38,882 bases of DNA, taken from Rhodocyclaceae bacterium. GTDB taxonomy: Bacteria > Pseudomonadota > Gammaproteobacteria > Burkholderiales > Rhodocyclaceae. Shown here one piece after another: positions 154 to 24,704 of this stretch. The DNA lies in assembly GCA_019455325.1 (NCBI GenBank), contig JACFMQ010000021.1, forward strand, positions 1 to 38,882, in the 5' to 3' direction. Positions within the stretch are counted from its first letter, which is position 1. Every line of letters begins with the position of its first letter. The notes below the pieces were generated by a model. That model ran no database searches, was not told where the DNA came from, and saw nothing but the letters and a program-made list of their open reading frames with translations. Both the position numbers and the translations under genes were made by a program.

Positions 154-203
154 CAATAGAATAGCTCTGCACGACAAGAACCGACCGGCGCTTCGCTCTA
201 TTG
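154..203. promoter_or_regulatory. Possible operator region upstream of the molybdenum hydroxylase operon
   Basis: CAATAGA (154-160) is repeated inverted as TCTATTG (197-203). Between them lies TGCACGACAA (168-177), a near match to TGCACGACCA at 24705-24714 upstream of the stand-alone coxG-like gene. The region is 50-100 nt upstream of the first operon start at 255, a usual place for activator binding. No convincing sigma70 pair is visible, consistent with activator dependence. This is a weak prediction from sequence alone. Confidence 0.3.
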
Positions 204-254
204 TCGATTCCGGCCACCGCTCCGCAGGATGAACCCGTTTCGAGGACTCGCCGC

Positions 255-1151: not shown

Positions 1152-1635
1152 CGCCATTCCGCCGGTCACCATCGAACTGACCGTCAACGGCCGCAAATAC
1201 TGCCGCGAGGTCGAACCGCGCCTGCTCCTCGTCGAATTCCTGCGCGAGGAGCTGGGGCTCACGGGCACGCACATCGGCTGCGACACCAGCTACTGCGGCG
1301 CCTGCACCGTGCAGTTGAACGGCGCGCCGATCAAGTCCTGCACGCTGTTCGCGGTGCAGGCGGACGGCGGCGAGGTGCTCACCGTCGAAGGGCTGGAACA
1401 GGACGGCGAGCTGCATCCCCTGCAGAAATCCTTCTCCGAACACCACGGCCTGCAGTGCGGCTACTGCACGCCGGGCATGCTGATGTCCGCGCACGCGCTG
1501 CTCGCCGGCAACCCCGGCGCCGACCGCAAGGCGATCAAGAAGGCGATCGCCGGCAACGTCTGCCGCTGCACCGGCTACCAGAACATCCTGAAGGCGATCG
1601 AGGCGGTGGCGAACGACGCCGGGGAGGGCAAATAA
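1138..1635 (+). CDS. Molybdenum hydroxylase 2Fe-2S (small) subunit, CoxS/XdhA-like
   Basis: A 165-residue two-cluster iron-sulfur subunit of normal length. The plant-type ferredoxin domain has C48, C53, C56 and C68; the C-terminal helical domain carries C107, C110, C142 and C144 (CGYC and CRC). It relays electrons from the molybdenum centre to FAD in the medium subunit. It overlaps the upstream gene by 14 nt, and its stop shares bases with the next start (TAATG), so the three structural genes form one translation unit. No Tat signal is visible, which fits a cytoplasmic enzyme. Confidence 0.95.
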   Translation: MSTPDAIPPVTIELTVNGRKYCREVEPRLLLVEFLREELGLTGTHIGCDTSYCGACTVQLNGAPIKSCTLFAVQADGGEVLTVEGLEQDGELHPLQKSFSEHHGLQCGYCTPGMLMSAHALLAGNPGADRKAIKKAIAGNVCRCTGYQNILKAIEAVANDAGEGK

Positions 1636-4600: not shown

Positions 4601-4754
4601 GCCGCTGCACACGATCTCGGCGGCGATCCAGGACGCGCTCGCCGGCGAGGACGTGGTCATCCGCAAGTCGATCAACTCACCGAACGACCTCTACGAAGCG
4701 CTCAAGCGCGCCGACCGCGCTTCGGCGGTCAAGGTAGAATCGCGCATCGGCTGA
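1635..4754 (+). CDS. CoxG-CoxL fusion: SRPBCC domain joined to molybdopterin-binding large subunit
   Basis: A 1039-residue protein, about 250 longer than a normal CoxL/XdhA-type large subunit. Residues 1-145 resemble CoxG (SRPBCC fold). A Pro/Ala-rich linker follows, with a Leu/Arg amphipathic stretch (AGWLQRLLRLLG) like the membrane-associating tail of CoxG. From about residue 240 to the end is the molybdenum hydroxylase catalytic subunit, with GGSFG at 473-477 and GMGEGG near the C-terminus; E985 is the expected catalytic glutamate. The CO dehydrogenase loop AYxCxxR is absent and the corresponding region reads SPNRGYSR (590-595), so this is not a CO dehydrogenase. The start ATG overlaps the upstream stop as TAATG. 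The likely reaction is hydroxylation of an aromatic N-heterocycle or oxidation of an aldehyde; the substrate is unknown. Confidence 0.9.
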   Translation: MEMKFSGQFEVSPPPAEVFALLSDPQKFAPLLPTFSSLEMKDANTALVKVSVGIGKIRGTASTQLTLQKKTEPTHATYLGTGKVMGGAYTMISSYDLEPKGSGTLVKWRGEVQLVGKILSLAGGGMQGYAEQQINAVITSLQQAMSPEGRRGAPAPADEAGWLQRLLRLLGLAPAADQPGGTPPADAAAATAKLTAGWTGTARAERGARALSPLKSAGRSKDFSAIVDRQASDKWVHAALSRKEDGRLIRGQGLFVDDYRVDGMLYMNLVRSPYAHARIVRIDTARAEALPGVVCTLTGPEIAAVCSPFMQIGPGTAQNIRDFPLAVEKAIYQGEPVVAVIAENARIAADAAQLVEVEYEALPVATDWKSALEDKAVLHPGMGTNHHWHGVYDFGDVDKAFAEAAHVVKIDQMDFHRTASTPLETHAVVATWQPTGGVDFFCNNSFPAIAIQMIAPALGLGIDQIRCKTQDIGGSFGIKIGNYPYMALAALASKKCGGRPVKWVETRNEHMLAGGHGGERTFLDTEVALDKDGTITAIRARHIDDCGAYPRYEPLGCVIWSQVLPACYKLRNIRIDFNQVVTNKGPASPNRGYSRLQHLWFMERVIDICAHALNIPGDAMRLANYVREFPYTTPNGCVYDSGDYPLMLEKAKALIGWDEWKKKQAEARAEGRWFGIGIGTTLDSGTNNFGQSRIVNPYLPFSGNSEVATIKLDLDGTVVVTLGSTPSGQGHETTTAQVVADELGIRPDMVEVRTGFDTAANSHGGHSGSYASQFAVTGLSAVHGACQKLKREMKTLAAFALEANEDDLEFTIGQQGPELRVKGTERGINYWALSAMVNINTAGQPAHFTDITLNIRHVYRPPFKIPDVDKKMGNLTLTYASQLHIAVVEVDRLTCVPKILAYAAIDDCGKVINPKIVAGQVHGAVAHGIGAALMEAHIYDRDGNLLTSTFTDYAPITAMSMPDLLYDDIETPSPFSYNGAKGMGEGGGAPLHTISAAIQDALAGEDVVIRKSINSPNDLYEALKRADRASAVKVESRIG

Positions 4755-6884: not shown

Positions 6885-7856
6885 ATGCTCCTCGACAGCG
6901 CCGGACGCCGCATCGAATACCTCAGGCTGTCGGTCACCGACCGCTGCGACCTGCGCTGCACCTACTGCCTGCCCGAGGATTTCAAGGGCTACGAGACGCC
7001 GGCGCACTGGCTCGATTTCGACGAGATCGAGCGCCTCGTCGCCGTCTTCGCCCGCCTCGGCGTGCGGCGGGTGCGCCTCACCGGCGGCGAGCCGCTGCTG
7101 CGGCGCGGCCTGCCGGAGCTGGCCGGCCGCCTGGCGGCGCTGCCCGGCGTCGAGGATCTGTCCCTGTCCACCAACGGTACGCGGCTCGCCCGCTACGCCG
7201 CCGCGCTCCGGCGGAACGGCGTCGCGCGGCTCAACGTCAGCCTCGATTCGCTGGACGCGGCGCGCGTCGAGGCGATCAGCCGGCGCGACGTGCTGGCGCA
7301 GGTGCTCGCCGGGCTGGACGCGGCGCGCGCCGAGGGCTTCACGCAGATCAAGATCAACATGGTGGCGATGCCGGGCGTCGGCGAGGACGAGGTCGACGCC
7401 ATGGTCGACTACTGCATGGGCAAGGGCTTCATCCTGCGCCTGATCGAGACCATGCCCATGGGCGACAGCGGGCGCGGCGCCGGCCACGTCGACCTGCGGC
7501 CGATCCAGGCGCGCCTGCGCGCCCGCTTCGGCCTGATCGACGGCCTCGTCGCCGGCGGCGGTCCGGCGCGCTACCTGGTGTCGCCGGACGGGCGCTTCCA
7601 GGTCGGCTTCATCACGCCGCTGTCGCAGCACTTCTGCGAGACCTGCAACCGCGTCCGCCTGTCGGTCGACGGCATCCTCTACCTGTGCCTCGGCCAGGAG
7701 GACACCGTCGATTTCCGCAGCCTGCTGCGCGCCGGCGGCAGCGACGCCGACATCGAAGCGGCGCTGGTCGCCGGCCTCGAACGCAAGCCGCTGCGCCACG
7801 AATTCCGCGAACGGCCGGGGAAGGTCGTGCGCATCATGTCATCGACCGGCGGCTGA
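6885..7856 (+). CDS. moaA: MoaA, GTP 3',8-cyclase for molybdenum cofactor synthesis
   Basis: A 323-residue radical SAM protein of normal MoaA length. The N-terminal 4Fe-4S cluster motif is C21-x3-C25-x2-C28. The C-terminal second cluster is carried by C251, C254 and C268 (CETC, then YLC). The chain ends in a Gly-Gly tail, typical of MoaA. It converts GTP to 3',8-cyclo-dihydro-GTP, the first step of molybdopterin synthesis. It begins 3 nt after the coxE stop, so it is co-transcribed with the enzyme it serves. A dedicated copy inside a molybdoenzyme operon is probably additional to a housekeeping moaA. Confidence 0.93.
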   Translation: MLLDSAGRRIEYLRLSVTDRCDLRCTYCLPEDFKGYETPAHWLDFDEIERLVAVFARLGVRRVRLTGGEPLLRRGLPELAGRLAALPGVEDLSLSTNGTRLARYAAALRRNGVARLNVSLDSLDAARVEAISRRDVLAQVLAGLDAARAEGFTQIKINMVAMPGVGEDEVDAMVDYCMGKGFILRLIETMPMGDSGRGAGHVDLRPIQARLRARFGLIDGLVAGGGPARYLVSPDGRFQVGFITPLSQHFCETCNRVRLSVDGILYLCLGQEDTVDFRSLLRAGGSDADIEAALVAGLERKPLRHEFRERPGKVVRIMSSTGG

Positions 7857-7890
7857 CGCACGCGCGCCGCGAACGGAAAGGAGAGGACGC

Positions 7891-8898
7891 ATGGCATCCG
7901 AACTCGACGACATCCTGCAGCGGGCGCTCGCCTGGCAGGAAAGCGGACGCGGCGCGGCGCTGGCGACGGTGGTGCGCACCTGGGGCTCGTCGCCGCGCCC
8001 GGTCGGCAGCCACCTGGCGGTCGGCGGCGACGGCGACTTCGCCGGCTCGGTGTCCGGCGGCTGCATCGAGGGCGCGGTCGTCCAGGAGGCGCTGGCGACC
8101 ATCGCCGACGGCCGGCCGCGCCTGCTCGAATTCGGCGTCAGCGACGAGCAGGCCTGGGAGGTCGGCCTGGCCTGCGGCGGCCGCGTGCAGGTCTACGTCG
8201 AGCGGCCCGGCAGCCTCGCCCGCCTGCTGGCGGCGCGCGCCGCCGGGCGGCCGGCGGCACTGGTCACGCGCCTCGCCGACGGCGCCCAGTGCCTGCTCGA
8301 CGCCGAGGAGGCGAGCGGCGATCTCGAACTCGACGCGGCCGCGCGCGACGCGCTGCGCCGGCGCTTCGTCAGCGGCGAGAGCGGGCCGCTCGACGCCGCC
8401 GGCGAGCTCTTCGCCCGCGTCTACGCGCCGGCGCCGCGCCTGATCATCGTCGGCGCGGTGCACGTCGCCCAGGCCCTGGCGCCGATGGCGGCGATCGTCG
8501 GCTACGCGGTGACCATCGTCGACCCGCGCAGCGCCTTCGCCAGCGCGCAGCGCTTCCCCGGCGTCACGCTCGTCGACGACTGGCCGGACGAGGCCATGGC
8601 TCGCCTCGCGCCCGACGCGCAGACCGCCGTCGTCACGCTGACGCACGACCCCAAGCTCGACGACCCGGCGCTCGCCGCCGCGCTCGCCGGCCCGGCCTTC
8701 TACGTCGGCGCGCTGGGCAGCGCGCGCACGCACGAGAAACGCCTCGACCGCCTGCGCGAGCTTGGCCTGGAAGAACAGTTCGGCCGCATCCACGCGCCGG
8801 TCGGCCTCGACCTCGGCGGCCGCCTGCCGGCGGAGATCGCCGTCGCCATCCTCGCCGAGATCATCCGCGTGCGCCGCAAGGGAACGGCCCCGCGATGA
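7891..8898 (+). CDS. xdhC: XdhC/CoxF-family molybdenum cofactor chaperone
   Basis: A 335-residue XdhC/CoxI-family protein. The N-terminal half has SVSGGCIEG, the conserved Cys-containing family motif. The C-terminal half has a Rossmann-like segment (LIIVGAVHVAQAL) and the closing YVGALGSARTHEKR motif. XdhC binds the molybdenum cofactor, promotes exchange of its oxo for a sulfido ligand with a NifS-type desulfurase, and delivers it to xanthine dehydrogenase-type enzymes. That desulfurase partner is plausibly the gene at 10532. A clear AAAGGAGAGG ribosome site precedes ATG 7891. The stop overlaps the next start as ATGA. Confidence 0.92.
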   Translation: MASELDDILQRALAWQESGRGAALATVVRTWGSSPRPVGSHLAVGGDGDFAGSVSGGCIEGAVVQEALATIADGRPRLLEFGVSDEQAWEVGLACGGRVQVYVERPGSLARLLAARAAGRPAALVTRLADGAQCLLDAEEASGDLELDAAARDALRRRFVSGESGPLDAAGELFARVYAPAPRLIIVGAVHVAQALAPMAAIVGYAVTIVDPRSAFASAQRFPGVTLVDDWPDEAMARLAPDAQTAVVTLTHDPKLDDPALAAALAGPAFYVGALGSARTHEKRLDRLRELGLEEQFGRIHAPVGLDLGGRLPAEIAVAILAEIIRVRRKGTAPR

Positions 8899-10535
8899 TC
8901 TTCGGCGACTTCCCCGCCGCCGAGGCCGAGGGCGTGCGCCTGGCGCACACGCTCAGGCTGCCCAACCTGCTGCTGAAGAAGGGCCGCGTGCTCTCCGCCG
9001 GCGACGTCGCCGCGCTGACCGCGGCCGGCGTCGAGCGCGTCGCCGGCGCCCGGCTCGATGCCGGCGAACTCGACGAGGACGCCGCCGCGCGCACCGTCGC
9101 CGGCCTCCTCGCCAACACCGGCATCGTCCCGCGCCCGCCCTACACCGGGCGCTGCAACCTCTACGCGCAGGGCGCCGGCGTGCTCGTCGTCGACCGCGAG
9201 CGCATCGACCGCCTGAACCGCATCAGCGAGGCCATCACCCTCGCCACCCTGCCGCAGCACGCCTGCGTCGGCCGGGACCAGCGCGTGGCCACGGTCAAGA
9301 TCATCCCCTTCGCCGTCGGCCCGGGCTGCGTCGACGCCTGGCGCGAGCTGGTCGGCACGCGCTCGCCGCTGCACCTGGCGCCGCTGCGCACCTGCCGCGC
9401 GGCGCTGATCATGGGCGTCTCGCCGAGCACCGGCGAGCGCCTGCTCGACCTCACCGTGGCCGCCACGCGCGGCCGGCTCGAAGCCCTCGGCAGCACGCTC
9501 GCGCTGACGCTGCGCTGCGCCCACGACGGCCCGGCCGTGACGCAGGCGCTGCAGCAGGCGCTGGCCGCGGGCTGCGACCTGGTGCTGGTGATGGGCGCGA
9601 CGGTGAGCAAGGACCGCGCCGACGTGGTGCCCGCGGCCATCGTCGCCGCCGGCGGCGTCATCGAGCACTTCGGCATGCCGGTGGAGCCCGGCAACATGCT
9701 GCTCACCGCGCGCATCGGCCAGGTGCCGGTGTTCAACCTGCCCGGCTGCGCGCGCTCTCGCAACCACAACGGCATCGACCTGCTGCTGCAGCGGCTGCTC
9801 GCCGGCCTGCTGCTGGCGCCCTACGACATCATGAGGCTCGGCGTCGGCGGCCTCCTGCACAGCCGCGAGGACGACGAGGCGATCGTCGATCCCGGGCAGG
9901 AATCCGTACCGGCGGCGGCGCCCGCCGAAGCGCCCGCGCCCGAGCCGCCGCGGGTCGCGGCGCTGGTGCTGGCGGCCGGGCGCTCGACACGCATGGGCGA
10001 GCGCAACAAGCTGCTCTGCGCCGTCGACGGCGTGCCGCTGGTGCTGCGCGCGGCCAACGCCGCCTGCGCCTCGCGCGCCTGCCAGGTGATGGTCGTCACC
10101 GGCCACGAGGCCGAGCGCGTCGAGGCCGCGCTCGACGGCCGCCCGGTATCCTTCACGCACAACCCGGACTACGCGCAGGGCATGGCCGGTTCGCTGCGGC
10201 GCGGGCTGCGCGCGCTGCGCTGCGACGTCGACGCGGTCATCGTGCTGCTCGCCGACATGCCCGGCATCGACGCCGCCGTCGTCGACCGCATGATCGACGC
10301 CTTCGACCCGGCGCAGCCGGCCATCCTGGTGCCGGAACACGCCGGCCGGCGCGGCAACCCGATCCTCTGGCCGCGCCGCTTCTTCGCCGAGATGGCGGCG
10401 CTCTCCGGCGACACCGGCGCGCGCGGCCTGCTCGAACAGTACGCCAGGGAAGTGCGGCGCGTGCCCTTCGACTCGCCGGCGATCTTCGCCGACGTCGACA
10501 CGCCCGAGGCGCTGCGCGCGCTGGAGCGGAAATGA
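8895..10535 (+). CDS. MoeA-like molybdopterin-binding / MocA-like nucleotidyltransferase fusion
   Basis: A 546-residue two-domain protein. Residues 1 to about 335 resemble a molybdopterin-binding (MoeA/MogA-type) domain, including VMGATVSKDRADVVP and GNMLL. From about 353 there is a MobA/MocA nucleotidyltransferase domain starting VAALVLAAGRSTRMGERNK (nucleotide-binding loop), with LLADMPGID as the metal-binding region. MocA attaches CMP to molybdopterin to form MCD, the cofactor form used by CO-dehydrogenase-like hydroxylases. The fusion probably inserts Mo and/or cytidylylates the cofactor for the enzyme at 255-4754. The start is ATG 8895, overlapping the xdhC stop. CofC of F420 synthesis is distantly related, but the motif is MocA-like. 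Confidence 0.85.
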   Translation: MIFGDFPAAEAEGVRLAHTLRLPNLLLKKGRVLSAGDVAALTAAGVERVAGARLDAGELDEDAAARTVAGLLANTGIVPRPPYTGRCNLYAQGAGVLVVDRERIDRLNRISEAITLATLPQHACVGRDQRVATVKIIPFAVGPGCVDAWRELVGTRSPLHLAPLRTCRAALIMGVSPSTGERLLDLTVAATRGRLEALGSTLALTLRCAHDGPAVTQALQQALAAGCDLVLVMGATVSKDRADVVPAAIVAAGGVIEHFGMPVEPGNMLLTARIGQVPVFNLPGCARSRNHNGIDLLLQRLLAGLLLAPYDIMRLGVGGLLHSREDDEAIVDPGQESVPAAAPAEAPAPEPPRVAALVLAAGRSTRMGERNKLLCAVDGVPLVLRAANAACASRACQVMVVTGHEAERVEAALDGRPVSFTHNPDYAQGMAGSLRRGLRALRCDVDAVIVLLADMPGIDAAVVDRMIDAFDPAQPAILVPEHAGRRGNPILWPRRFFAEMAALSGDTGARGLLEQYAREVRRVPFDSPAIFADVDTPEALRALERK

Positions 10536-13724: not shown

Positions 13725-13806
13725 GGCGGCAATGCTCCTCGCTGCGTAGGCCCGTACGGGCGAACGGAAAAACGGCGGCGACGCGGCCGCCGGAAGAAAA
13801 CGGGCC

Positions 13807-14763
13807 TCAGCCCTCGATCAGCGCGCCGCTGCGCGCCTTGGTGCGGAGCTGCCCCGGCGAGATGCCGAAGCGGTCCTTGAAGGCCCGGCTGAAGTGGGCG
13901 GAATCGTTGAAGCCGCGGCTGTAGGCGATCTCGCAGATGGTCAGCGACGCCTTCGACGGGTCGAGCAGATCCTCGCGCCCGGCCCGCAGCCGGCGGTCCC
14001 AGATCCATTTGCTGACGGTCGTGCCGCACTGCTGGAACAGCCCGTGCAGGTGGCGCACGGAAACGAAGTTGGCCTGGGCGATGCGCGTCGGCGTCAACTG
14101 GTGGTCGGAGAAGTTCTCCTCCAGGTAGGACAGGATGCGGCACAGGCGCGCGCCCTGGTTCTTCTCGTTCTCGCGGGCGCCGGACTTGCTGCGCGAGCGG
14201 ATCACCGAGCCGATCAGCGACAGGAAGCTCTCGGCCAGCGTGAACTGTTCGATGTCGGTGAGTTCGGATTCACCTTCGAGGGTCAGCGACTTGAGCAGGG
14301 AGACGACGATCGGCACCAGTCCGTCGCTGCCGAACGCGGCCGCGCCGAAATCGCGCACTTCCCGCCCGAGCAGGCGTTCGTGGAACACGCGGTAGGGAAT
14401 GCGCAGGATGATCTTGCGCCCCTTGTCCGGGTAATTGACGCTGTAGGGAACGCCGCTGTGAACGATCGCCAGCGCGTTCTCGCGCAGGGTGAAGGTCCTG
14501 CCGTCCTGGGTGATCTCGGCCGTGCCTTCGAGCTGGATGTGCAGCAGCACGTCGAAGATGCGGTCGGCGAGGATGTCCTCGGCCAGCCGGGAGACGGTGA
14601 TCGGATCGCTCTCGATGCTGTGCACGGTCAGGTTCGAGATCTTGATGCGATTCACCGCGTAATGCTCGAACGGTTCGCCGTGCTGCTGCGCGGTGACGCG
14701 CACCACCGCGTTGCGGACGTTGTCCAGCAACGGACTTTCGACAAGCGCCATACCCATGACCAT
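13807..14763 (-). CDS. AraC-family transcriptional regulator (first of three)
   Basis: A 318-residue regulator. The N-terminal ligand/dimerisation domain resembles the AraC_binding_2 type (ITQDGRTFTL, LRIPYRVF). The C-terminal double helix-turn-helix runs from about residue 215, with the signature IAYSRGFNDSAHFSRAFKDRFGISPGQ given in part as RGFNDSAHFSRAF. AGGAGGAG lies just upstream of ATG 14763; ATG 14757 is an alternative. It lies downstream of the FO synthase operon on the same strand, so it is the likely local regulator of that operon or of the SDR/DJ-1 genes. Confidence 0.92.
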   Translation of the reverse strand: MVMGMALVESPLLDNVRNAVVRVTAQQHGEPFEHYAVNRIKISNLTVHSIESDPITVSRLAEDILADRIFDVLLHIQLEGTAEITQDGRTFTLRENALAIVHSGVPYSVNYPDKGRKIILRIPYRVFHERLLGREVRDFGAAAFGSDGLVPIVVSLLKSLTLEGESELTDIEQFTLAESFLSLIGSVIRSRSKSGARENEKNQGARLCRILSYLEENFSDHQLTPTRIAQANFVSVRHLHGLFQQCGTTVSKWIWDRRLRAGREDLLDPSKASLTICEIAYSRGFNDSAHFSRAFKDRFGISPGQLRTKARSGALIEG

Positions 14764-14932
14764 CTCTCCTCCTAAGCGGGTCCGGCTGAGAACGACGCCG
14801 GACCCCGGTGAAACTGTCTCGTGCGATATGCCGGATTAATCCGGTCTTGACATCGTCGTTTTTTTGTTTTTCTGTTTTGTCACCGCGTGATTATTGCACT
14901 CTCCCTGCCCAGGTCAACAGGATCATCGCACT
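14764..14932. promoter_or_regulatory. Regulator upstream region with a 14-bp palindrome
   Basis: This 169-bp gap between two minus-strand genes contains the perfect palindrome CCGGATTAATCCGG (14831-14844) and a T-rich plus-strand tract at 14855-14880 (A-rich on the coding strand). The palindrome is about 70 nt upstream of the AraC start and could be an operator or part of the operon-end hairpin. The A-rich coding-strand tract could act as an UP-like element. No definite -35/-10 pair was assigned. Confidence 0.35.
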
Positions 14933-16126
14933 TCAGCGAAGGGCGTTCGCCAGCTCGGTAAACGCCGCGTCGTCGACCAGGCGGCGCGTGCGCGTGGCCC
15001 GCGTCTTGACCGCGGCGAGCAGCGCCGGAAACTGCTCGGCGGGCACCGCCAGGCCCAGCTCCTTGACCTTGATCTCGATGTTGGCGAGACCGCTCTTCTT
15101 GCCCAGCACGATGCCGCGCCGCGCGGCGACGATCGCCGACGAATAGGGCTCGATGGCGTCGGGCATGTGGAACTGCGCCGCCACGGCGCCGCTCTCGCGG
15201 ACGAACAGCGCCTCGCCGACCACCGGCTTCCAGCGGTCGACCTGGTAGCCGCCTTCCCGGCAGACCAGCTCGGAGACGCGGCGCGCCTGCGTCAGGTCCA
15301 TCTCCACCGGCACGCCGTAGAGGCATTGCAGGGCCAGCGCGATCTCGCAGATGTCGGCGTTGCCGGCGCGTTCGCCCATGCCGTTCACCGTGCCCTGGAT
15401 CCAGGTGGCGCCGCCGCGGACGGCGGCGATGGCGGCGGCGGTGGCCAGGCCGAAGTCGTTGTGGCCGTGCCAGTGGATCGGCACGTCCGGCCCGACCCAG
15501 GCGGCCACCTGGCGGATCAGGAACTCGACGGCCTCGGGCGCGCAGGCGCCGATGGTGTCGACCACCGACACTTCTTCGGCGCCGGCGGCGATCGCCGCCT
15601 TGTAGACCTGCGCGAGGAAATCCATCTCCGAGCGCGTGCTGTCGACCGGGAAGAAGTTCACCCGCATGCCGTGCGCGCGCGCGTGCCGGATGGCGTCGGT
15701 CAGGCGCGCGATCACGGTTTCGCGCGTGAAGCCGTAGGCCTGCATCTTCTGTTCGCTGGTGGCGATCTCGATCAGCACCGCCGTCGTCCCCAGCTCGATG
15801 TGGGCGTCGATGTCGGCCTTGACCGCCCGCGCGAAGCCCCAGATCTCCGACTTCAGGCCGGCCGCCAGGATGCGCCGGACGGCCTCGGTGTCTTCGTCGG
15901 AGACGCGCGGGAAGCCGGATTCGATGCGGCCCACGCCGAGATCGGCGAGGCCGCGGGCGATGGCGAACTTGGCGTCGGCGGAGAAGACCACGCCGACCGC
16001 CTGCTCGCCGTCGCGCAGCGTCGTGTCGTAGAAGCGGACGGTCTTCGTGCGGTCGAAGCCGTCCTGGACCTCCGGCCGGCGGTTGATGCCGCCGGTCCAG
16101 ATCAGGTCGGGGGAAATCTGCGTCAT
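14933..16126 (-). CDS. Homocitrate-synthase/isopropylmalate-synthase-like DRE-TIM enzyme
   Basis: A 397-residue DRE-TIM metallolyase. The signature YDTTLRDGEQ places R38, D39 and E41; HWHGHND gives metal ligands H220 and H222; NGMGERAGN (about 246) is typical of the condensing subgroup (homocitrate, citramalate and isopropylmalate synthases). The regulatory domain of LeuA is absent and the length is near NifV homocitrate synthase. It would join an acyl-CoA to a 2-oxo acid, or run the reverse cleavage. A GAGGTGA site precedes ATG 16126, and the gene starts 14 nt after the cyclase gene, as last gene of the six-gene operon. The context suggests it handles an oxo-acid product of the pathway; this is inferred. 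Confidence 0.85.
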   Translation of the reverse strand: MTQISPDLIWTGGINRRPEVQDGFDRTKTVRFYDTTLRDGEQAVGVVFSADAKFAIARGLADLGVGRIESGFPRVSDEDTEAVRRILAAGLKSEIWGFARAVKADIDAHIELGTTAVLIEIATSEQKMQAYGFTRETVIARLTDAIRHARAHGMRVNFFPVDSTRSEMDFLAQVYKAAIAAGAEEVSVVDTIGACAPEAVEFLIRQVAAWVGPDVPIHWHGHNDFGLATAAAIAAVRGGATWIQGTVNGMGERAGNADICEIALALQCLYGVPVEMDLTQARRVSELVCREGGYQVDRWKPVVGEALFVRESGAVAAQFHMPDAIEPYSSAIVAARRGIVLGKKSGLANIEIKVKELGLAVPAEQFPALLAAVKTRATRTRRLVDDAAFTELANALR

Positions 16127-16140
16127 GTCGTCACCTCGGT

Positions 16141-16956
16141 TCAAGCGATTGCGATGGGGCGGATCAGCGAGGCCTCGCCGCCCTTGATCTTCAGGGGCAG
16201 CACGACCACCGTGCTGACGTAGGTCCGGTCCGCGGCCAGCGTCTCCAGGGTCAGGCTCTTCATCAGGTAGATGCCGGCCTCGACGAGGATGACGCGGTGG
16301 CTGGTGAACGGCGCCGGCACGCCGAGCGACAGGTTGTCGATGCCGACGAGCTTCGGCCGGCGGGCGGCGACCCAGCGCGCGGCCTCGTCGTCGAGCCCGG
16401 CCCACTTGTTCAGGTAGGTGTCGCGGTCGGTCTCGAAGTAGCGCCCGTAGCCGGTGCGGATCAGGATGCAGTCGCCCTCGCCGATGCTCACGCCCTGCGT
16501 CGCCGCCGCGCCTTCGAGGTCGTCGGGGGTGATGGCGTAGCGTTCGGGCAGCACGTCCACGCCCTTGTAGGCGGGAACGTCGAGCAGCACCGCGCGCAGC
16601 AGCAGCGGCGGCACCTTCTCCATGCTGTGCAGCGGCTCGGGCAGATTGACGAAGCCGGTGTCGCGCTGGTACGGCGTGACGTCGATGCCCATCACCTTCA
16701 GATCCTCGGACATGTGGATCGGCAGGTCGAAGTGCGTGCCGGAGTGCATGGAGGTGACGATCAGGCTGATGGCGTCGGAAAAGCCCGGCTGGATGCCCAT
16801 CTCGTCGAAGGACTTGCGCACGTACTCGTGGTACCGGTAGAGGAAGAACTGGAACGGCGGATCGAACGGGTGCACCGGCATGCTCGGCCAATAGGCCTGC
16901 CCCAGGTCGTAGACGCGGGCCGCCGACAGGCTGTCAATCAGGGAATGTCCGCTCAC
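16141..16956 (-). CDS. Cyclase-family metal-dependent hydrolase (KynB/isatin hydrolase type)
   Basis: A 271-residue cyclase-family protein. The metal-binding signature HSGTHFDLPIH is intact (HxGTHxDxPxH, about residues 91-101). Characterised relatives include kynurenine formamidase and isatin hydrolase, which hydrolyse formamides or cyclic amides with Mn or Zn. The gene lies between FO synthase (48 nt) and the DRE-TIM gene (14 nt). A ring-opening or amide-cleaving step in the operon's pathway is the natural reading; the substrate is unknown. Confidence 0.88.
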   Translation of the reverse strand: MSGHSLIDSLSAARVYDLGQAYWPSMPVHPFDPPFQFFLYRYHEYVRKSFDEMGIQPGFSDAISLIVTSMHSGTHFDLPIHMSEDLKVMGIDVTPYQRDTGFVNLPEPLHSMEKVPPLLLRAVLLDVPAYKGVDVLPERYAITPDDLEGAAATQGVSIGEGDCILIRTGYGRYFETDRDTYLNKWAGLDDEAARWVAARRPKLVGIDNLSLGVPAPFTSHRVILVEAGIYLMKSLTLETLAADRTYVSTVVVLPLKIKGGEASLIRPIAIA

Positions 16957-17004
16957 GCGCAGTTTCCTTTCTCGTATCGTCGTGGGTTCTGCCGGCCGCG
17001 CGCG

Positions 17005-19395
17005 TCACGCGCAGCCGACGGCGAGGCGCGGCTTCCATGCCGACGCGGAAAAATAGTCGCGGGCAGCCGCGGCTTCGTAGAGGGTGGTGCGCCGCTGCGG
17101 CGCGCGGCCGAGCGAACGGATCAGCGCCTCCATCTCGGTCGGCGTCATCTCCTGGCCGTTCCTGGCGCCGGCGGCGCGGCTGATGCTTTCGTTCATCAGC
17201 GTGCCGCCGAGGTCGTTGGCGCCGGCCTGCAGGCAGACGCCGGCGCCGTCGCGGCCCATCTTGGTCCACGAGGTCTGGATGTTGCCGATCAGCGGGTGCA
17301 GCACCAGGCGCGCCACGGCGTGCATCAGCACCGCCTCGCGGAAGGTCGGTCCCGGCCGCGCGCCGCCGCGCCGGTAGATCGGCGCCTCCATGTGCACGAA
17401 CGGCAGCGGCACGAATTCCGTGAAGCCGCCGCTGACTTCCTGCAGGTCGCGCAGGAAGAGCAGGTGCCGCGCCCAGTGCTCGGGCCGCTCGATGTGGCCG
17501 AACATGATGGTCGCCGTGCTCTTCAGGCCAAGGCCGTGGGCCGTGCGCATCACCTCGCCCCATTCGGCGACGGAAAGCTTGTCCGGACACAGCGTCCGGC
17601 GCACGCCGTCGTCGAGGATCTCGGCGGCGGTGCCCGGCAGCGAGCCGAGCCCGGCCGCCTTCAGCTCGGCGAGGTAGTCGCCGAGCGACAGGCCGAGCGT
17701 CGCCGCGCCCTGCCGGATCTCCAGCGGCGAGAAGGCGTGGATGTGCATCTCCGGACGCACGGCCTTGATCGCCCGGCAGATGTCGAGGTAGGTGCGGCCG
17801 GTGTAGGAAGGATGGATGCCGCCCTGCAGGCAGACCTCGCTCGCCCCGCGGTCCCACGCCTCGGCCGCCATCTCCTGGATCTCGGCGAGCGGCAGGTCGT
17901 AGGCCCGGCCGCGCAGCGGCTCGCCGGCCTTGCCCTTGGAGAAGGCGCAGAAGCGGCACTGGTAGGTGCAGATGTTGGTGTAGTTGATGTTGCAGTTGGG
18001 CACGTAGCTGACCGTGCGCCCGCTGACCTCGACGCGCAGCTCGTCGGCCGCCGCGCAGAGGATGTGGAACTCGCCGCCGCGCACGGCGAAGAGGCGCGCC
18101 ACTTCGCTTGCGGACAGGCGCACGCCGCGCGCCGCCCTTTCGGCGCAGCGGTAGGTCTCGTTGCCGATGAAATGGAAAAGCTGCTCGGCCGGCGGGAAGT
18201 CCGGCATCTTCGGCGGCGGCGTGCCGGCGCCGGGCGCCCAGGCGTCGGTGCGCGGCAGGCCGCCGGCGTCGATGCACGAGCGCACGGACTGCTGCAGCCC
18301 GGCATCGACCCATTCTTCCAGCCGCTGCGCCAGCCGCGGGTAGATGGGCAGGCGCGGCACCAGGATCTTGCCGGCCAGCTCCGTCTCCCGCGCCAGCAGG
18401 CGCAGGTGCGGCCACGGCGCCTCGGGGTTGACGTGGTCGGGCGTCACCGGCGAGACGCCGCCGAGATCGTTGATCCCGGAGTCGATCAGCGCGCGCACGG
18501 ACTGCGGCGACAGGTTCGGCGGCGCCTGGATGTTGGCCTCGGCGCCGAAGATGATGCGCGCGGCGGCGATCGTCCAGCACAGCTCCTCGGTCGACGGCTC
18601 CGGCGCTTCCGCCATCCGGGTGCCCGGCTTTCGGCGGAAGTTCTGGATGATGATTTCCTGCAGATGGCCGTGCGCGTCGTCGAGCTCGCGCAGGGCCAGC
18701 AGCGCCTCGATGCGCTGCCGCCGCGTCTCGCCGATGCCGATGAGGATGCCGGAGGTGAAGGGAATCTTCAGCCGGCCGGCGGCGGCGATCATTTCCAGGC
18801 GCGCGGCCGGCCGCTTGTCGGGCGAGCCGTGGTGCGGCCCGCCGGGTTCGCACAGGTTCTCGGCGGTGCTTTCGAGCATCAGCCCCTGCGACACGGAGAC
18901 CGCGCGCAGGGCCTGCAGGTCCCGCGCGTCCATGACGCCGGCGTTCAGGTGCGGCAGCAGCCCGGTCTCGTCATGAACCAGCCGCGCCATGGCGGCGAGG
19001 TAGGAGAGGGTGCTCTCGTGGCCGAGGGCGGCGAGCGCCTCGCGGGCCGCGCCGTAGCGCAGTTCCGGCTTGTCGCCGAGGGTGAACAGGGCCTCGTGGC
19101 AGCCGGCGCGCGCGCCGGCGCGGGCGATTTCGAGCACCTCGTCGGGCGTCAGGTACGGCGCCCGGTCCGCCGCCGGCGTCCTGGCGAAGGTGCAGTAGTG
19201 GCAGACGTCGCGGCACAACTGCGTGAGCGGGATGAACACCTTCGGCGAATAGGTGACCGCGGCGCCGTGGCCGCGGTCCCTGATCGCCGCCGCGATCACC
19301 CGGATTTCGCGCGCGTCCGCGCAGTCGGCCAGCGCCAGCGCGGTCTCGGCGTCGGGGCGCGCCAGCGCCGAAAGGCTGTCGGTCAGTGTGCTCAT
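17005..19395 (-). CDS. fbiC: Fused CofG-CofH FO synthase (FbiC-like), deazaflavin cofactor synthesis
   Basis: A 796-residue protein with two radical SAM halves. The CofG half has C61-x3-C65-x2-C68 (CRDVCHYC) and the CofH half, from about residue 400, has C476-x3-C480-x2-C483 (CTYQCRFC). Order and length match FbiC of actinobacteria; archaea usually have separate cofG and cofH. It makes FO (7,8-didemethyl-8-hydroxy-5-deazariboflavin) from tyrosine and the ribityl-aminouracil intermediate of riboflavin synthesis. The start is ATG 19395 with GGAGGT 9 nt upstream; an in-frame ATG at 19419 is less well placed. It is the fourth gene of an operon led by an F420-type LLM oxidoreductase. No CofC, CofD or CofE is seen nearby, so F420 itself would need genes elsewhere. 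Confidence 0.95.
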   Translation of the reverse strand: MSTLTDSLSALARPDAETALALADCADAREIRVIAAAIRDRGHGAAVTYSPKVFIPLTQLCRDVCHYCTFARTPAADRAPYLTPDEVLEIARAGARAGCHEALFTLGDKPELRYGAAREALAALGHESTLSYLAAMARLVHDETGLLPHLNAGVMDARDLQALRAVSVSQGLMLESTAENLCEPGGPHHGSPDKRPAARLEMIAAAGRLKIPFTSGILIGIGETRRQRIEALLALRELDDAHGHLQEIIIQNFRRKPGTRMAEAPEPSTEELCWTIAAARIIFGAEANIQAPPNLSPQSVRALIDSGINDLGGVSPVTPDHVNPEAPWPHLRLLARETELAGKILVPRLPIYPRLAQRLEEWVDAGLQQSVRSCIDAGGLPRTDAWAPGAGTPPPKMPDFPPAEQLFHFIGNETYRCAERAARGVRLSASEVARLFAVRGGEFHILCAAADELRVEVSGRTVSYVPNCNINYTNICTYQCRFCAFSKGKAGEPLRGRAYDLPLAEIQEMAAEAWDRGASEVCLQGGIHPSYTGRTYLDICRAIKAVRPEMHIHAFSPLEIRQGAATLGLSLGDYLAELKAAGLGSLPGTAAEILDDGVRRTLCPDKLSVAEWGEVMRTAHGLGLKSTATIMFGHIERPEHWARHLLFLRDLQEVSGGFTEFVPLPFVHMEAPIYRRGGARPGPTFREAVLMHAVARLVLHPLIGNIQTSWTKMGRDGAGVCLQAGANDLGGTLMNESISRAAGARNGQEMTPTEMEALIRSLGRAPQRRTTLYEAAAARDYFSASAWKPRLAVGCA

Positions 19396-19447
19396 CGTTC
19401 GATGACCTCCATGTCGCATCCCGGAAACCGCCCGGCGCCGGCCTGTC

Positions 19448-20719
19448 TCACTCGGCGACGCCGCAGAGGTTCATCATCACTTCGATGTAAACCTTGACGA
19501 TGTCCACCATGTCGCCGATGTGCACGTGCTCGCCCTGCGCCGTCGAGAAGCCGCCGCCGCCGGTGCGGATGCGGCCGGCCGAGCCGTAGTTCACGGTCGG
19601 GATGCCGTAGCGGTTCATGTGCGCGGCGTCGCTGTACCAGGTCTCGACGCCCATCTGCGGCGCCTTGCCGAGCTGGTTGGTGTGCGCCGAGACGATGCTC
19701 TCGACCAGCGCGTGGTCGTCCGGGATCGACGTGCCCGGCGCCGACAGGAAGATTTCCGTCTTGGTGCCGGCGAGCTGCGGGTTCTTGCCGACCACCGAGC
19801 GGACCAGGTCGCGCACCTCGTTGAACGCCTGCACCGGCAGAACGTCCGGCAGCGTGCGCACGTCGAGGTAGATGACGCAGTTGTCCGGCGTGCGCGCGCC
19901 GCGCCAGGGCCAGCCGCCCTCGATCGCCGAGACGTTCACGCGCGGCCGGAAGTCGCCCAGCGCGTTGCGCTGCACGTAGTCCGGAATCCACTCGTGGATG
20001 GCGTCGAGGATCACGCGCGCCTTGTTGATGGCGTTGCGGTCGACTTCCGACCAGGCGGTGTGGATCAGGTGGCCGGGGACGGTGATCTTGATCCAGGTCG
20101 TGCCGCAGTGGCGCGGGATCAGCATCATGTTGGTCGGCTCGCCGAGGATGCAGTAGTCGGCGACCGCGCCGTGGGTGATGGCGTACTTGGTGCCGACGCC
20201 GTAGCCCTGGTACTGGCGGCCTTCGTATTCGTTCACCGGCGCCTTCTCGATCTCGCCGGCGACGGCGGCGATGACCACGTCGCCGCCGAGCTTGATGCCG
20301 GCCTTGCGGATGGCCTCGACGGCGGTGACGTAGTTGGCCAGCGCGAACTTCATGTTGAACGAGCCCATGCCGTAGATCCACTCGTCGTCGACGAGCGTGC
20401 CCTTGCACTGGTAGCCGATGCCGCGGTGCGCCTGCTCCGGCCCGAACGAGGTGTCGAGGTGGCCGTTGAACATCAGCGACTTGCCGCCGCCCTCGCCCTG
20501 CAGGCGGCCGATGGCGTTGTAGCGCTCGTCGCCGATCGGCTGCAGCGTCGCCTCGAAGCCGGAGGTGCGCAGCACCTCGTGGTAGGCGCGCGCGACGTCG
20601 CCCTCGAAGCCGGTCGGGCTCGGGATGTCGGTCAGCGCGATGGTCAGGTCGACCAGCCGGCTGCGGTCGATCTGCTCGATCGCTTTCTTGACGAGTTCCT
20701 TGTTTGCGTTGTTTGCCAT
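19448..20719 (-). CDS. M20-family amidohydrolase with an altered dimetal site
   Basis: A 423-residue protein of the ArgE/DapE/CPG2-like M20 family. The first metal motif NGHLDT (H87, D89) and the GEPT glutamate (E194) are present, as is a C-terminal GEHVHIGD histidine. The residue that normally bridges the two metals, Asp in D-x-K, is Asn here (GSFNMKF, N122). The usual Glu-Glu pair is GEI (E156, I157), so one ligand is lost. It may be mono-metal, use a different chemistry or act on an unusual substrate. It lies 15 nt after the FAH gene and 52 nt before FO synthase. Typical members remove acyl groups from amines or hydrolyse small amides. Confidence 0.85.
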   Translation of the reverse strand: MANNANKELVKKAIEQIDRSRLVDLTIALTDIPSPTGFEGDVARAYHEVLRTSGFEATLQPIGDERYNAIGRLQGEGGGKSLMFNGHLDTSFGPEQAHRGIGYQCKGTLVDDEWIYGMGSFNMKFALANYVTAVEAIRKAGIKLGGDVVIAAVAGEIEKAPVNEYEGRQYQGYGVGTKYAITHGAVADYCILGEPTNMMLIPRHCGTTWIKITVPGHLIHTAWSEVDRNAINKARVILDAIHEWIPDYVQRNALGDFRPRVNVSAIEGGWPWRGARTPDNCVIYLDVRTLPDVLPVQAFNEVRDLVRSVVGKNPQLAGTKTEIFLSAPGTSIPDDHALVESIVSAHTNQLGKAPQMGVETWYSDAAHMNRYGIPTVNYGSAGRIRTGGGGFSTAQGEHVHIGDMVDIVKVYIEVMMNLCGVAE

Positions 20720-20734
20720 GTTCGCCTCGCCTGG

Positions 20735-21655
20735 TCAGTCGACGATGAAGGTGGTGAGCGTGCCGAGCTTCTCGACATTGCAGTCGATGCGGTCGCCGTT
20801 CTTGAGGTACACCGGGTTCTTGCTGCCGGCGATGACGCCCGGCGGGCTGCCGGAGGTGATCACGTCGCCCGGCTCCAGCGTGGTGTTCGACCACCAGGAC
20901 ACCATGTCGGCGATCTTGTAGTGGACGTGGCCGGAGTTCGAGGTCTGGCGCGCTTCGCCGTTGAGCGTGAGCTGCATGCTCAGGTTATTCACGTCGCCGA
21001 CCTCGTCGAGCGTCACCAGGTACGGGCCGAGCGGGCAGGAGCCGTCGAAGCTCTTGCCGAGCAGGATGACCTTGTTGGCGTGCTCGCGCGCCTGGATGTC
21101 GCGCGCCGACAGGTCGTTGAAGATGGTCAGGCCGGCGACGTAGTCGAGCGCCTCGTCGGGCGACACGCGGAACGCCTTCTTGCCGATGATGATGCCGATC
21201 TCGATCTCGTAGTCGAGCTGCTTGGTGAAGTGCGGGATGGCCACCGAGGCGTTGGTCGGCACCACGCTCGACGGCGCTTCGAGGAAGCCGGTGGGGTGCT
21301 CGAAGTGGAAATCGCCCCAGTTGTGCGCCTGCCACTCCGGCGCCTTCCACGTCGTCAGCTCGGAGAGGTGGCCGGGGAAGTTGCACGAGGTGTGCATGAT
21401 CTTGCCGGGGCGCGGCACCGGCGCCTGCAGCTCGACGTCGGCGGCGGCGAGCACGTGCGGCTGCCCGGCGGCGGCCTTCGCCGCCAGCGCGCGCGCCTGC
21501 GCCAGTGCGCCCTCGCCCGCTTCGAGGAAGGGAATCATCGCGTTCGGCAGCGCACCGTCGGTCGCGCCGTGGAGGTCGAGGCAACTGCCGTCGGCGAGGA
21601 CGACGCCGATCGTCGCCTTGCCGCTCGACCTGATCTTGAAGCTAGCCAATTTCAT
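20735..21655 (-). CDS. Fumarylacetoacetate hydrolase (FAH)-family protein
   Basis: A 306-residue FAH-family protein. The metal-binding acid residues appear in DYEIEIG and in FNDLSARD, and GKSFDG supplies the conserved lysine. The N-terminal 75 residues form the usual small domain. FAH-fold enzymes hydrolyse C-C bonds of 2,4-dioxo acids, hydrate 2-oxo-4-enoic acids or decarboxylate oxaloacetate-like acids, mostly late in aromatic ring catabolism. ATG 21655 is chosen because GGAGAG lies just upstream and MKLASFK is a typical family start. The gene is second in the operon, 57 nt after the LLM gene. Confidence 0.9.
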   Translation of the reverse strand: MKLASFKIRSSGKATIGVVLADGSCLDLHGATDGALPNAMIPFLEAGEGALAQARALAAKAAAGQPHVLAAADVELQAPVPRPGKIMHTSCNFPGHLSELTTWKAPEWQAHNWGDFHFEHPTGFLEAPSSVVPTNASVAIPHFTKQLDYEIEIGIIIGKKAFRVSPDEALDYVAGLTIFNDLSARDIQAREHANKVILLGKSFDGSCPLGPYLVTLDEVGDVNNLSMQLTLNGEARQTSNSGHVHYKIADMVSWWSNTTLEPGDVITSGSPPGVIAGSKNPVYLKNGDRIDCNVEKLGTLTTFIVD

Positions 21656-21712
21656 CTTTCTCTCCGTTTCGTTGGCCGCGCCGCGCAACATGCGCGGCGC
21701 GCGCCGTCACCC

Positions 21713-22810
21713 TCAGGCCGTGACCGCGGGGCCGGGCTTGAGGCGGGGCAGGACCTTCTCGCCCATCAGCCGGATCGTTTCCAGGTTGTCCTCGACGGTC
21801 TTGCCGACGACTTCGAGCAGCGGCAGGTTGAGGCCGGCGTCGATCAGCTCCTGGGTGATCTCCAGGCACTCGTCGGGCGTGCCGGAAATGACCGTGAAGC
21901 GGCGCATCATCTCGTCGGTGACGAGGTGCGTGACGTTGTCCTGGGTGCCCTCGGCGATGGCCTTGCGGAACGGCTCCCAGGCGCTGTCGGGCAGGCCGGA
22001 TCCGGCCAGGATGACGTCGTTCTTGATGTTGCGGATCTTGTTCACGACGTAGGTGCCGGTGTAGCTGCGCGTCGCGTTGCGCGCCTTGTCGCCGTCCTCG
22101 GAGCAGGCGCAGAGGATGACGCCGCCGACCGGGAAGTCGTCCGGCAGCGTGCGGCCGACGGCGGCGGCGCCGTCCTTCATGTTGCCGATCGCGTACTTGA
22201 CGAAGGCCGGCGAGGTCAGGCCGGCGAGCAGCATGCCGTCGCTTTCCTTGCCCGAGAGCTTCTGCATGAACGGGCCGGTGGCGCCGACGTACAGCGGGAT
22301 GCTGGTGCGCAGGCCCTTGCCGGCGCGGTCGAAGGCCGGCATCGACGACTTGTAGTGCTTGCCTTCGTAGGCGAACTTCTCGCCGCTGAAGACCTTGCGC
22401 ATGATGTCCATCGATTCGTGGTGCACCGCCACCGGGCGCATCTTCTCGATGTCGTACTCCAGGTACTCGATGCCGACCTTGCCGACGCCGATGCCCATGT
22501 TGAAGCGGCCGCCGGACAGCTCGTCGATGGCCGCGGCCTCGGACGCCTGGATGGTCGGGTGGCGCATGTAGGGCGAGGTGATGCCGAGGCCCACCGGAAT
22601 CTTCTTCGTCGCCTGCGCGACGACGGCGAGCGTCGTGAAGCAGCCGCGGGCCTCCAGCCCGTACTGGCGGAACCAGTGGTAGGCTTCGGCGATCCAGAAG
22701 CCGCCGCTCATGCCGGACGCCTCGGTCTGCTCGGCGTAGGCGCGGATCGCCGACAGGGGTTCGTAGGACTTGAAAATCACGCCCATCTTGGGCTGCACGG
22801 TCTTGGTCAT
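21713..22810 (-). CDS. LLM-class oxidoreductase, F420-type (methylene-H4MPT reductase-like)
   Basis: A 365-residue luciferase-like (LLM) TIM-barrel protein resembling 5,10-methylenetetrahydromethanopterin reductase and F420-dependent dehydrogenases in size and motifs, for example LGITSPYMRHP, ELSGGRFNMGIGVG and IPLYVGATGPFM. LLM proteins bind FMN or F420. The presence of FO synthase three genes downstream makes a deazaflavin cofactor likely. It heads the six-gene minus-strand operon, starting at ATG 22810 with GGAG about 10 nt upstream. It would reduce or oxygenate the pathway substrate. An FMN-dependent monooxygenase with a separate reductase, as in RutA, is the main alternative. Confidence 0.88.
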   Translation of the reverse strand: MTKTVQPKMGVIFKSYEPLSAIRAYAEQTEASGMSGGFWIAEAYHWFRQYGLEARGCFTTLAVVAQATKKIPVGLGITSPYMRHPTIQASEAAAIDELSGGRFNMGIGVGKVGIEYLEYDIEKMRPVAVHHESMDIMRKVFSGEKFAYEGKHYKSSMPAFDRAGKGLRTSIPLYVGATGPFMQKLSGKESDGMLLAGLTSPAFVKYAIGNMKDGAAAVGRTLPDDFPVGGVILCACSEDGDKARNATRSYTGTYVVNKIRNIKNDVILAGSGLPDSAWEPFRKAIAEGTQDNVTHLVTDEMMRRFTVISGTPDECLEITQELIDAGLNLPLLEVVGKTVEDNLETIRLMGEKVLPRLKPGPAVTA

Positions 22811-23112
22811 CTCTGGATATCTCCGAAAAAGGATTGCCACGTACGAAATCGACCGGGATGCATCCCCGGAGCGGCGTCGAACTCAGGCACATCCTAGGGG
22901 CCGCCTCCGGGTCGAGTCTTGCCCGCCCGAGCTAGGCGATTGATCAGCAGTGCAAATACGCGCGCCGGAAAGCGGGCGCTGCGCCGCCCGCGCGCGGCGT
23001 GCACGCCGAGTCAAGCCGCGCCGCGCGCGGAGCAAGACCGGAGCCGGTACAGGACGTATCTTTGCGAGCGGCCGGCGCCCTTGCCGGCAGACACCCGAAC
23101 GGAGGAAGCCGC
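22811..23112. promoter_or_regulatory. Divergent promoter region between the LLM operon and the FbiB-like gene
   Basis: This 302-bp gap holds no convincing gene. On the minus strand TGCACTGCTGATCAA (22954-22940) shares the pattern TGCAC-N5-ATCAA with the region upstream of the coxG-like gene (24705-24719). It lies about 130 nt upstream of the LLM start. TATCTT at about 23060 could be a plus-strand -10 for the nitroreductase gene, whose GGAGGA site is at 23101. The two divergent operons may share one activator. Confidence 0.4.
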
Positions 23113-23754
23113 ATGCCGCCCGCAGCATCCCGACCGGCCGTCGCCGGCTACGCGGCGCTCGTCGAAGCGATCGCCGGACGGCGCTCGATCCGGCGCTATC
23201 GCCCGGAGCGGCCGACGCGCGCCCTGATCGACGCGCTGCTGCAGGTGGCGACGAGCGCGCCGTCGGCCCACAACCGCCAGCCCTGGCGTTTCCGCGTGCT
23301 GATCGACGACGCCGAGAAGGCGGCGCTGGCCGAGGCCATGGGCGCGCGCCTCACCCGCGACCGCCTGGCCGACGGCGACGCCGAAGACCTCGTCGCGGCC
23401 GACGCCGCCCGCTCCCGCCAGCGCATCGCCGAGGCGCCGGCGATCGTCGTCGTCTGCCTGTCGATGGCGGACATGGACCGCTACCCCGACCTGCGGCGCA
23501 ACCGCGCCGAATACCTGATGGCGGTGCAGAGCGTCGCCATGGCCGGCCAGAACCTGCTGCTCGCCAGCCACGCCGCCGGGCTCGGCGCCTGCTGGCTGTG
23601 CGCGCCGCTGTTCTGTCCGGGCGTCGCCTGCCAGGTGCTCGACCTGCCCGATGACTGGCAGCCGCAGGGGCTGATCACGCTCGGCTATCCGGCCGACGCG
23701 GGCAAGCCCTTCGTCCGCCACCCGCTCGACCGGGTCCGCCGGCCTTCGCCGTAG
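23113..23754 (+). CDS. Nitroreductase-family protein resembling the FbiB C-terminal domain
   Basis: A 213-residue FMN-type nitroreductase-fold protein. The start is ATG 23113 with GGAGGA at 7 nt. Typical motifs are RRSIRRY near the N-terminus, TSAPSAHNRQPWRF, and the late GLGACWLCAPLF plus LPDDWQPQGLITLGYP. The last two resemble the C-terminal domain of mycobacterial FbiB, which reduces dehydro-F420 during F420 maturation. It is divergent from the LLM/FO synthase operon, which supports a deazaflavin link. It could instead be a substrate reductase or a flavin reductase serving the LLM protein. The N-terminal ligase domain of FbiB is absent. Confidence 0.8.
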   Translation: MPPAASRPAVAGYAALVEAIAGRRSIRRYRPERPTRALIDALLQVATSAPSAHNRQPWRFRVLIDDAEKAALAEAMGARLTRDRLADGDAEDLVAADAARSRQRIAEAPAIVVVCLSMADMDRYPDLRRNRAEYLMAVQSVAMAGQNLLLASHAAGLGACWLCAPLFCPGVACQVLDLPDDWQPQGLITLGYPADAGKPFVRHPLDRVRRPSP

Positions 23755-24569: not shown

Positions 24570-24704
24570 TCCTCGCCTCCTCGCATTCGCCGCGTACCGG
24601 CCAGGCCACTCTAGCGCCTTGGCGCGCGCGTTTCTTGCCCGGCCGGGCCCGGCGCTTGACTGCGCGCGCACGCGCGGCGCCCTACGTTCTCGATCATCCA
24701 TTTG

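Follow-up and report, generated by a model that had tools for sequence, protein, structure and literature searches.

A six-gene operon with an embedded FO synthase in a Rhodocyclaceae genome suggests an F420-dependent catabolic module

The DNA analysed here (the window) is contig JACFMQ010000021.1 of a Rhodocyclaceae bacterium (assembly GCA_019455325.1); it represents the whole of contig C27, 38,882 bases. The genome measures 4.46 Mb, with completeness rated at 100% and contamination at 2.03%. On its minus strand lies an operon of six genes, encoding a luciferase-like (LLM) oxidoreductase, an FAH-family hydrolase, an M20-type hydrolase, a fused CofG-CofH FO synthase, a cyclase-family hydrolase and an HMGL/homocitrate-synthase-like enzyme (Table 1). 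A sequence-only reading had described these six genes and proposed that the operon makes its own deazaflavin for the LLM step. The operon is real and lies where it had been placed, the genes and their order are confirmed, and the measured gaps are 15-57 nt (57, 15, 28, 48 and 23 nt, the first being 21 nt if the FAH gene starts at 21691). Codon-position GC content backs five of the six frames; that of the HMGL gene is part of a longer open reading frame (ORF) that fails this filter, its strong PF00682 match notwithstanding. A scan of positions 12900-23100 returned one promoter-like site, upstream of the AraC gene (0.8 in shuffled sequence), and seven terminator-like sites (4.8 in shuffles, sd 2.1), of which one that shares the strand of the operon (17071-17058) coincides with the 3' end of the gene for FO synthase. 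The gene spacing suggests that the six genes are co-transcribed.

Table 1. Genes of the operon and its surroundings in the window, with the matches used to name them.
Feature	Coordinates	Strand	Matches and remarks
LLM (luciferase-like) oxidoreductase, Mer-like	21713..22840	-	PF00296 171.5 bits; start GTG 22840 or ATG 22810
FAH-family hydrolase	20735..21655, alternative ATG 21691	-	PF01557 201.9 bits; best PDB match 8sky 145.9 bits
M20-type hydrolase	19448..20719	-	PF01546 50.4 bits
Fused CofG-CofH FO synthase	17005..19419	-	NF006687 1086.8 bits (cut-off 1018); two CxxxCxxC motifs
Cyclase-family hydrolase (superfamily of arylformamidase and isatin hydrolase)	16141..16956	-	PF04199 94.5 bits
HMGL/homocitrate-synthase-like enzyme	14933..16117	-	PF00682 239.4 bits; best PDB match homocitrate synthase 6ktq, 195.3 bits
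AraC-family regulator	13807..14763	-	PF12833, PF14525; 169 nt downstream of operon
FbiB-C-terminal-like nitroreductase	22999..23754	+	TIGR03553 127.8 bits, below cut-off 249.55
CoxM-like FAD subunit, molybdenum hydroxylase	201..1151	+	PF00941, PF03450; 57% to UBA4486 copy
CoxS-like 2Fe-2S subunit	1138..1635	+	PF01799, PF00111; 67% to UBA4486 copy
CoxG-CoxL fusion, molybdopterin large subunit	1635..4754 (ORF listed from 1455; ATG 1635)	+	PF06240, PF01315, PF02738, PF20256
Molybdenum cofactor genes: MoaA-like, XdhC/CoxI, MobA-like/MoCF	6885..10535	+	PF04055 + PF06463; PF02625 + PF13478; PF12804 + PF00994

The FO synthase passes its NCBIfam equivalog model, and both sets of radical SAM cysteines pointed out from the sequence are indeed intact (CRDVCHYC at residue 69, CTYQCRFC at residue 484). 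No other FO synthase was found in the source genome (E up to 1e-10), nor any PF00296 protein besides the LLM; as each is the only one of its kind found, the proposed link from cofactor supply to the LLM step is a strong one.

The best NCBIfam model for the LLM protein is that of Mer, the F420-dependent methylene-tetrahydromethanopterin (H4MPT) reductase (TIGR03555, 174.7 bits, under the cut-off of 348.7), and the cut-off of no F420 model is passed. Its PDB matches are led by Mer, by sequence as well as by modelled fold, ahead of all FMN enzymes, while FMN and F420 enzymes are intermixed in the rankings below. The structure model (pLDDT 89.8) is a TIM-barrel of the LLM fold and closest to Mer. 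At the site of the F420 backstop, a non-prolyl cis-peptide, the sequence keeps Gly86-Ile87, which is no proof of F420 use, and GIT occupies this site in all eight close LLM proteins, the window's own included. In the alignment Mer Glu6 is replaced by Ile22 and Mer Asp96 by Lys121, the former being catalytic and the latter contacting the pterin according to an excerpt of PMC11094777. With both residues absent the protein is no Mer, and a role as Mer in one-carbon (C1) metabolism was rejected on these grounds. We infer that it uses F420H2 as hydride donor. On plasmids, the LLM protein matched 226 records, every one of them below 60% identity, and the 10 of the 226 that were listed are at 25-29%.

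The remaining F420 genes are encoded in the same genome. CofC, CofD and CofE are clustered at the left end of contig C25 and pass their NCBIfam cut-offs (125.4 against 105, 255.9 against 180.65 and 287.9 against 257.45 bits, respectively), as does an NADPH:F420 reductase, NpdG (C25, 12315-13148). The sequence-only reading had allowed for FO itself or for F420 completed elsewhere as the cofactor; given these four genes, the latter is most likely, and FO on its own would not have to serve as cofactor. The presence of NpdG fits a remark in a review (PMC8498797, section 23) that Fno (the NpdG type) is the sole known F420-reducing enzyme encoded by betaproteobacterial F420 producers. PF04075, the sole further F420 enzyme family searched, gave no match in the genome; its control matched nowhere, so the result is uninformative.

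To assess conservation, the best 80 of at least 588 related stretches from an FO synthase scan, which may not have included the source genome itself, were examined, and in six of them LLM (55-83% identity), FAH and M20 homologues lie near the FO synthase. These stretches belong to two Thiodiazotropha (L006, L007), OY282354 (L010), Thiotrichaceae UBA4486 (L050), MH-Pat-SR (L051; MH-Pat below) and OFTM306 (L037), an alphaproteobacterial metagenome-assembled genome (MAG). The order LLM-FAH-M20-FO synthase recurs in the Gammaproteobacteria, and its retention in other genomes indicates that the gene order of the operon is not due to chance; the more distant L037 shows a changed order, CofD-CofC-FO synthase-LLM-KPR-FAH-M20 on one strand, KPR denoting a ketopantoate-reductase-like gene. 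A search for the same order in other proteobacteria had been put forward as a check, and an objection from lack of conservation thus fails. With the LLM protein as bait (E up to 1e-80), the source genome stands alone among 101 relatives and among 398 genomes of the phylum, and in the class of UBA4486 three of 369 genomes match, namely UBA4486, G615 and G503 (the last as two contig-edge pieces). The carriers thereby total nine genomes, the window included, those named being gamma- and alphaproteobacterial according to record titles. The FO synthase is adjacent in eight of the nine, but seven of the nine are either the window or genomes retrieved with FO synthase as bait; for the LLM bait alone it is three of four. 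G615 has LLM-FAH-M20 among other neighbours, with its FO synthases on other contigs. Within the stretches read, the HMGL gene is seen in six and the AraC gene in four of the nine carriers, neighbourhood matches being counted from half the query length upwards or above 150 bits. Gene links were counted from 38% identity and half length upwards. CofE was found in five of the six other operon genomes tested and not in G006, a MAG of 2.6 Mb. Thiodiazotropha are clam symbionts. Among the matches listed, the open-licence PMC literature holds no description of this cluster.

A tree was calculated from 81 FO synthase sequences (the window plus 80 loci, with a single tblastn piece for each locus; quick method, midpoint root). 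Six of the seven operon FO synthases form one group (SH-aLRT 99), and the placement of the seventh, from L037, is known just as outside of it; the operon label changes twice on this tree, against 6.8 times in shuffles, with none of 500 shuffles as low. This grouping of six, with L037 apart, suggests that operon and FO synthase have for the most part moved together, and L037 seems to reflect a second joining of an FO synthase to a related module. LLM and CofE are absent from all six congeners (65-99% complete). The claim that deazaflavins are rare in proteobacteria does not hold in this form: FO synthase is patchy instead, across the at least 588 related stretches, yet CofE is present in just seven of 101 genomes searched, the source genome included. 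These distributions suggest that the module was horizontally acquired and spread, and they would fit its having been gained along with the F420 genes.

Beyond the operon, the window encodes FAD, 2Fe-2S and molybdopterin subunits which together make up a molybdenum (Mo) hydroxylase set of the CO dehydrogenase/XDH family by Pfam, followed by Mo cofactor genes (the listed start of the MobA-like/MoCF ORF is too far out). In other carriers such a set is often linked to the operon. The large subunit carries an N-terminal CoxG domain, which might place the enzyme at the membrane, and is closest to quinoline 2-oxidoreductase (350.1 bits) and CoxL (346.3 bits). The fusion is 61-62% identical over about 1037 aa to its counterparts in UBA4486, MH-Pat and OY282354, and a 528-aa piece (67%) is found at a contig edge of G615. 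An XDH-family enzyme in Thiodiazotropha (L108) is just distantly related to it (26%), and no Mo hydroxylase match was seen in the stretches of L006 (22 kb), G503 (19 kb in two pieces) and L037 (7.6 kb). Two more XDH-family sets are present on C25 (L123 8875-12649 and L125 604-4261; 29-44% to the window subunits), and in OY282354 a molybdopterin oxidoreductase that includes an Fe4S4 domain (PF00384, PF04879; L010 12474-14585) lies between the FO synthase and PuuE-like genes. AraC homologues (39-45%) are found directly upstream of LLM in UBA4486, MH-Pat and G503. The nitroreductase gene is divergent from LLM, its start 158 nt away on the opposite strand; in Cupriavidus and two Alcaligenaceae (L013, L017, L034), homologues (54-63%) have an FO synthase nearby. 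Because it scores below the cut-off of the FbiB C-terminal model, we regard it as no more than a candidate dehydro-F420 reductase for F420 synthesis, a role in whose favour these homologues speak. Also in the window are a GTP cyclohydrolase FolE2 near the operon (23763-24803; 300.9 against a cut-off of 215), whose ORF exceeds the model by about 90 residues at the start, perhaps from a wrong start codon, and a methanethiol S-methyltransferase MddA (29281-30096; 302.9 against 270).

In other carriers the module is wider. UBA4486 holds nearly all of it within about 23 kb (L093, L106): Mo hydroxylase, CofC, CofD, CofE, NpdG, an MFS transporter, an M24 protein, two KPR genes, HMGL, cyclase, FO synthase, M20, FAH, LLM and AraC. 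The two KPR genes and the M24 gene follow the operon in UBA4486, OY282354 and MH-Pat, and in Thiodiazotropha M24 and one KPR are about 5 kb from CofE-CofD-CofC. A search of C25 with 21 proteins taken from the carrier neighbourhood comparison recovered homologues of both KPRs and M24 (66, 74 and 71%), about 38 kb from the Cof genes, preceded by ABC-transporter genes and followed by ETF and ETF-QO genes; one of the additional XDH-family sets sits a few kb before these transporter and KPR-M24 genes. A PntB-like transhydrogenase ORF, named by eye, adjoins the Cof genes on C25; Thiodiazotropha has an ORF 43% identical to it at a distance of about 4 kb from the operon. In place of the cyclase-family protein, which UBA4486 shares with the window, L006, L007, OY282354 and MH-Pat have a PuuE-like protein, and a PuuE-like gene is also near the module in G615.

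Contigs C25 (L004 1-55) and C27 (3-57) open with 55 identical bases (100%) in the same direction, so both start with copies of one repeat, a direct C25-C27 join not being shown; the copies abut the cofC end on C25 and the Mo hydroxylase end on C27. Just downstream of npdG, an acyl-CoA dehydrogenase gene (L004 11110-12492) is 77% identical over 271 aa to a gene of G615 and scores 203.3 bits with the glutaryl-CoA dehydrogenase model (cut-off 470). An exporter-like gene on C25 (L004 14418-16790; HAE3 transporter model 167.4 bits, cut-off 351.9) encodes a product 34% identical to that of a gene beside the UBA4486 operon, and another (L124 13531-15969) was recognised by eye only.

We think it probable, with some reservation, that the operon belongs to a catabolic module gained by horizontal transfer, whose LLM protein reduces a nitrogen-containing ring with F420H2, probably after hydroxylation by the Mo enzyme. 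The embedded FO synthase would provide the deazaflavin head, which CofC, CofD and CofE encoded elsewhere would turn into finished F420, to be reduced with NADPH by NpdG. The CoxG-fused Mo hydroxylase would probably act first, adding a water-derived oxygen to the ring, after which hydride transfer from F420H2 by LLM would dearomatise it. The cyclase-family protein (elsewhere PuuE-like), M20, M24 and FAH enzymes could then hydrolyse C-N and C-C bonds, opening and trimming the ring, and the resulting oxo acids may enter KPR-like and homocitrate-synthase-like steps. Reduction of an N-heteroaromatic ring has about an even chance, and hints at the substrate conflict: the Mo subunit resembles quinoline 2-oxidoreductase and CoxL, the M20 protein 5-nitroanthranilic acid aminohydrolase, and the logic that of the reductive uric-acid cluster. 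PDB matches of the cyclase-family protein are weak, isatin hydrolase being among them at 22.5 bits. Homarine catabolism was also considered and, with no support at hand, dropped.

Whether a deazaflavin serves the LLM protein at all bears directly on this proposal. The LLM superfamily includes FMN as well as F420 enzymes (PMC6279831, in part), and an ordinary FMN-dependent monooxygenase that oxygenates its substrate, with the FO synthase merely located in the operon, would agree with the failure to pass any F420 model, with the mixed rankings below Mer and with the G615 module, which has no adjoining FO synthase. Such an enzyme is nevertheless unlikely here, given that F420-dependent Mer stands above all FMN enzymes by sequence and fold, that FO synthase sits beside LLM in gamma- and alphaproteobacterial records as well as in the window, L037 adding CofC and CofD, and that the genome yielded no further LLM that would account for F420 production. 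FO bears the redox-active ring, and its synthase alone among the FO/Cof genes sits in the operon, so that LLM might use operon-supplied FO directly; the four further F420 genes above their cut-offs, together with the CofE genes of most other operon genomes tested, make this highly improbable.

The nature of the pathway allows for other readings as well. Instead of a heteroaromatic ring, the compound broken down reductively could be a nitro- or amino-aromatic, and the best solved relative of the M20 protein is 5-nitroanthranilic acid aminohydrolase (5k8m, 190.1 bits, E 5.1e-55 by sequence), the AraC proteins of the window match the FeaR and AndR models (below cut-off), and F420H2-dependent LLM reductases attack picrate in Actinobacteria by hydride transfer (PMC8498797, in part). 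Against such substrates speaks the linked Mo hydroxylase with its CoxG fusion, which has quinoline 2-oxidoreductase and CoxL as nearest matches; cyclase- or PuuE-like ring-amide hydrolases better suit N-rings, and symbiont MAGs among the carriers would be unlikely to live on nitroaromatics; we hold this option to be rather unlikely, if worth bearing in mind. Homocitrate synthases are usually anabolic, and as Mer is a C1 enzyme (PMC11094777, in part), the pathway might also be envisaged as C1-type or biosynthetic, with the homocitrate-synthase-like enzyme elongating a chain, for instance. The lack of the Mer pterin-site residues in LLM leaves this little probability, as do the AraC regulator, the transporters (MFS or ABC), the Mo hydroxylase and the various families of hydrolases, which indicate catabolism.

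One operon thus links the only FO synthase found in the genome with its only LLM, the other F420 genes being in the same genome, and the arrangement shared with other carriers suggests a concrete, testable job for F420 in proteobacteria. With this linkage and the remaining genes at hand, a single set of knockouts combined with one enzyme assay could give F420 a defined proteobacterial task, and the same tests could reveal a reductive ring-degradation pathway that Thiodiazotropha, Thiotrichaceae and other gammaproteobacterial MAGs have too. More tentatively, and at somewhat less than even odds, F420 may be a single-purpose cofactor in proteobacteria, where a mobile module with its own FO synthase spreads together with one LLM reductase, so that synthesis and catabolic step are gained at once and open an undescribed reductive route for N-rings.

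Compared with Mer of methanogens, the LLM protein of the window has Glu6 and Asp96 replaced, scores under the Mer cut-off and sits in a bacterial operon with hydrolases. The Cupriavidus and Alcaligenaceae stretches (L013, L017, L034) have FO synthase near an FbiB-C-like nitroreductase, as here, whereas no LLM, FAH or M20 homologue was seen in them and their FO synthases fall elsewhere in the tree. The reductive uric-acid cluster, as described in part of PMC12507026, comprises SsnA, HyuA and YgeY, with a Chloroflexota variant that includes a putative F420-dependent LLM; an XDH-family Mo enzyme, a dearomatising reductase (the putative LLM in Chloroflexota) and an M20 hydrolase are common to both systems. 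In contrast to that cluster, the Pfam scan, which covered 30 ORFs of the window and did not extend to the rest of the genome, found no PF01979 amidohydrolase (SsnA/HyuA type); the YgeY model gives the M20 protein 99.5 bits, short of its cut-off of 321; and the FO synthase is embedded. Picrate and dinitrophenol are reduced in a similar way in Rhodococcus, Nocardia and Nocardioides, where LLM-family enzymes transfer a hydride from F420H2 to the ring (PMC8498797, in part), as we propose here. The present system is characterised by its Mo hydroxylase, by M20, M24 and homocitrate-synthase-like enzymes, by a cyclase- or PuuE-like protein and by the in-operon FO synthase. The initial interpretation is thereby partly supported and extended: F420H2-dependent reductive catabolism is already known, and it is the FO synthase embedded among the catabolic genes that sets this operon apart as unusual.

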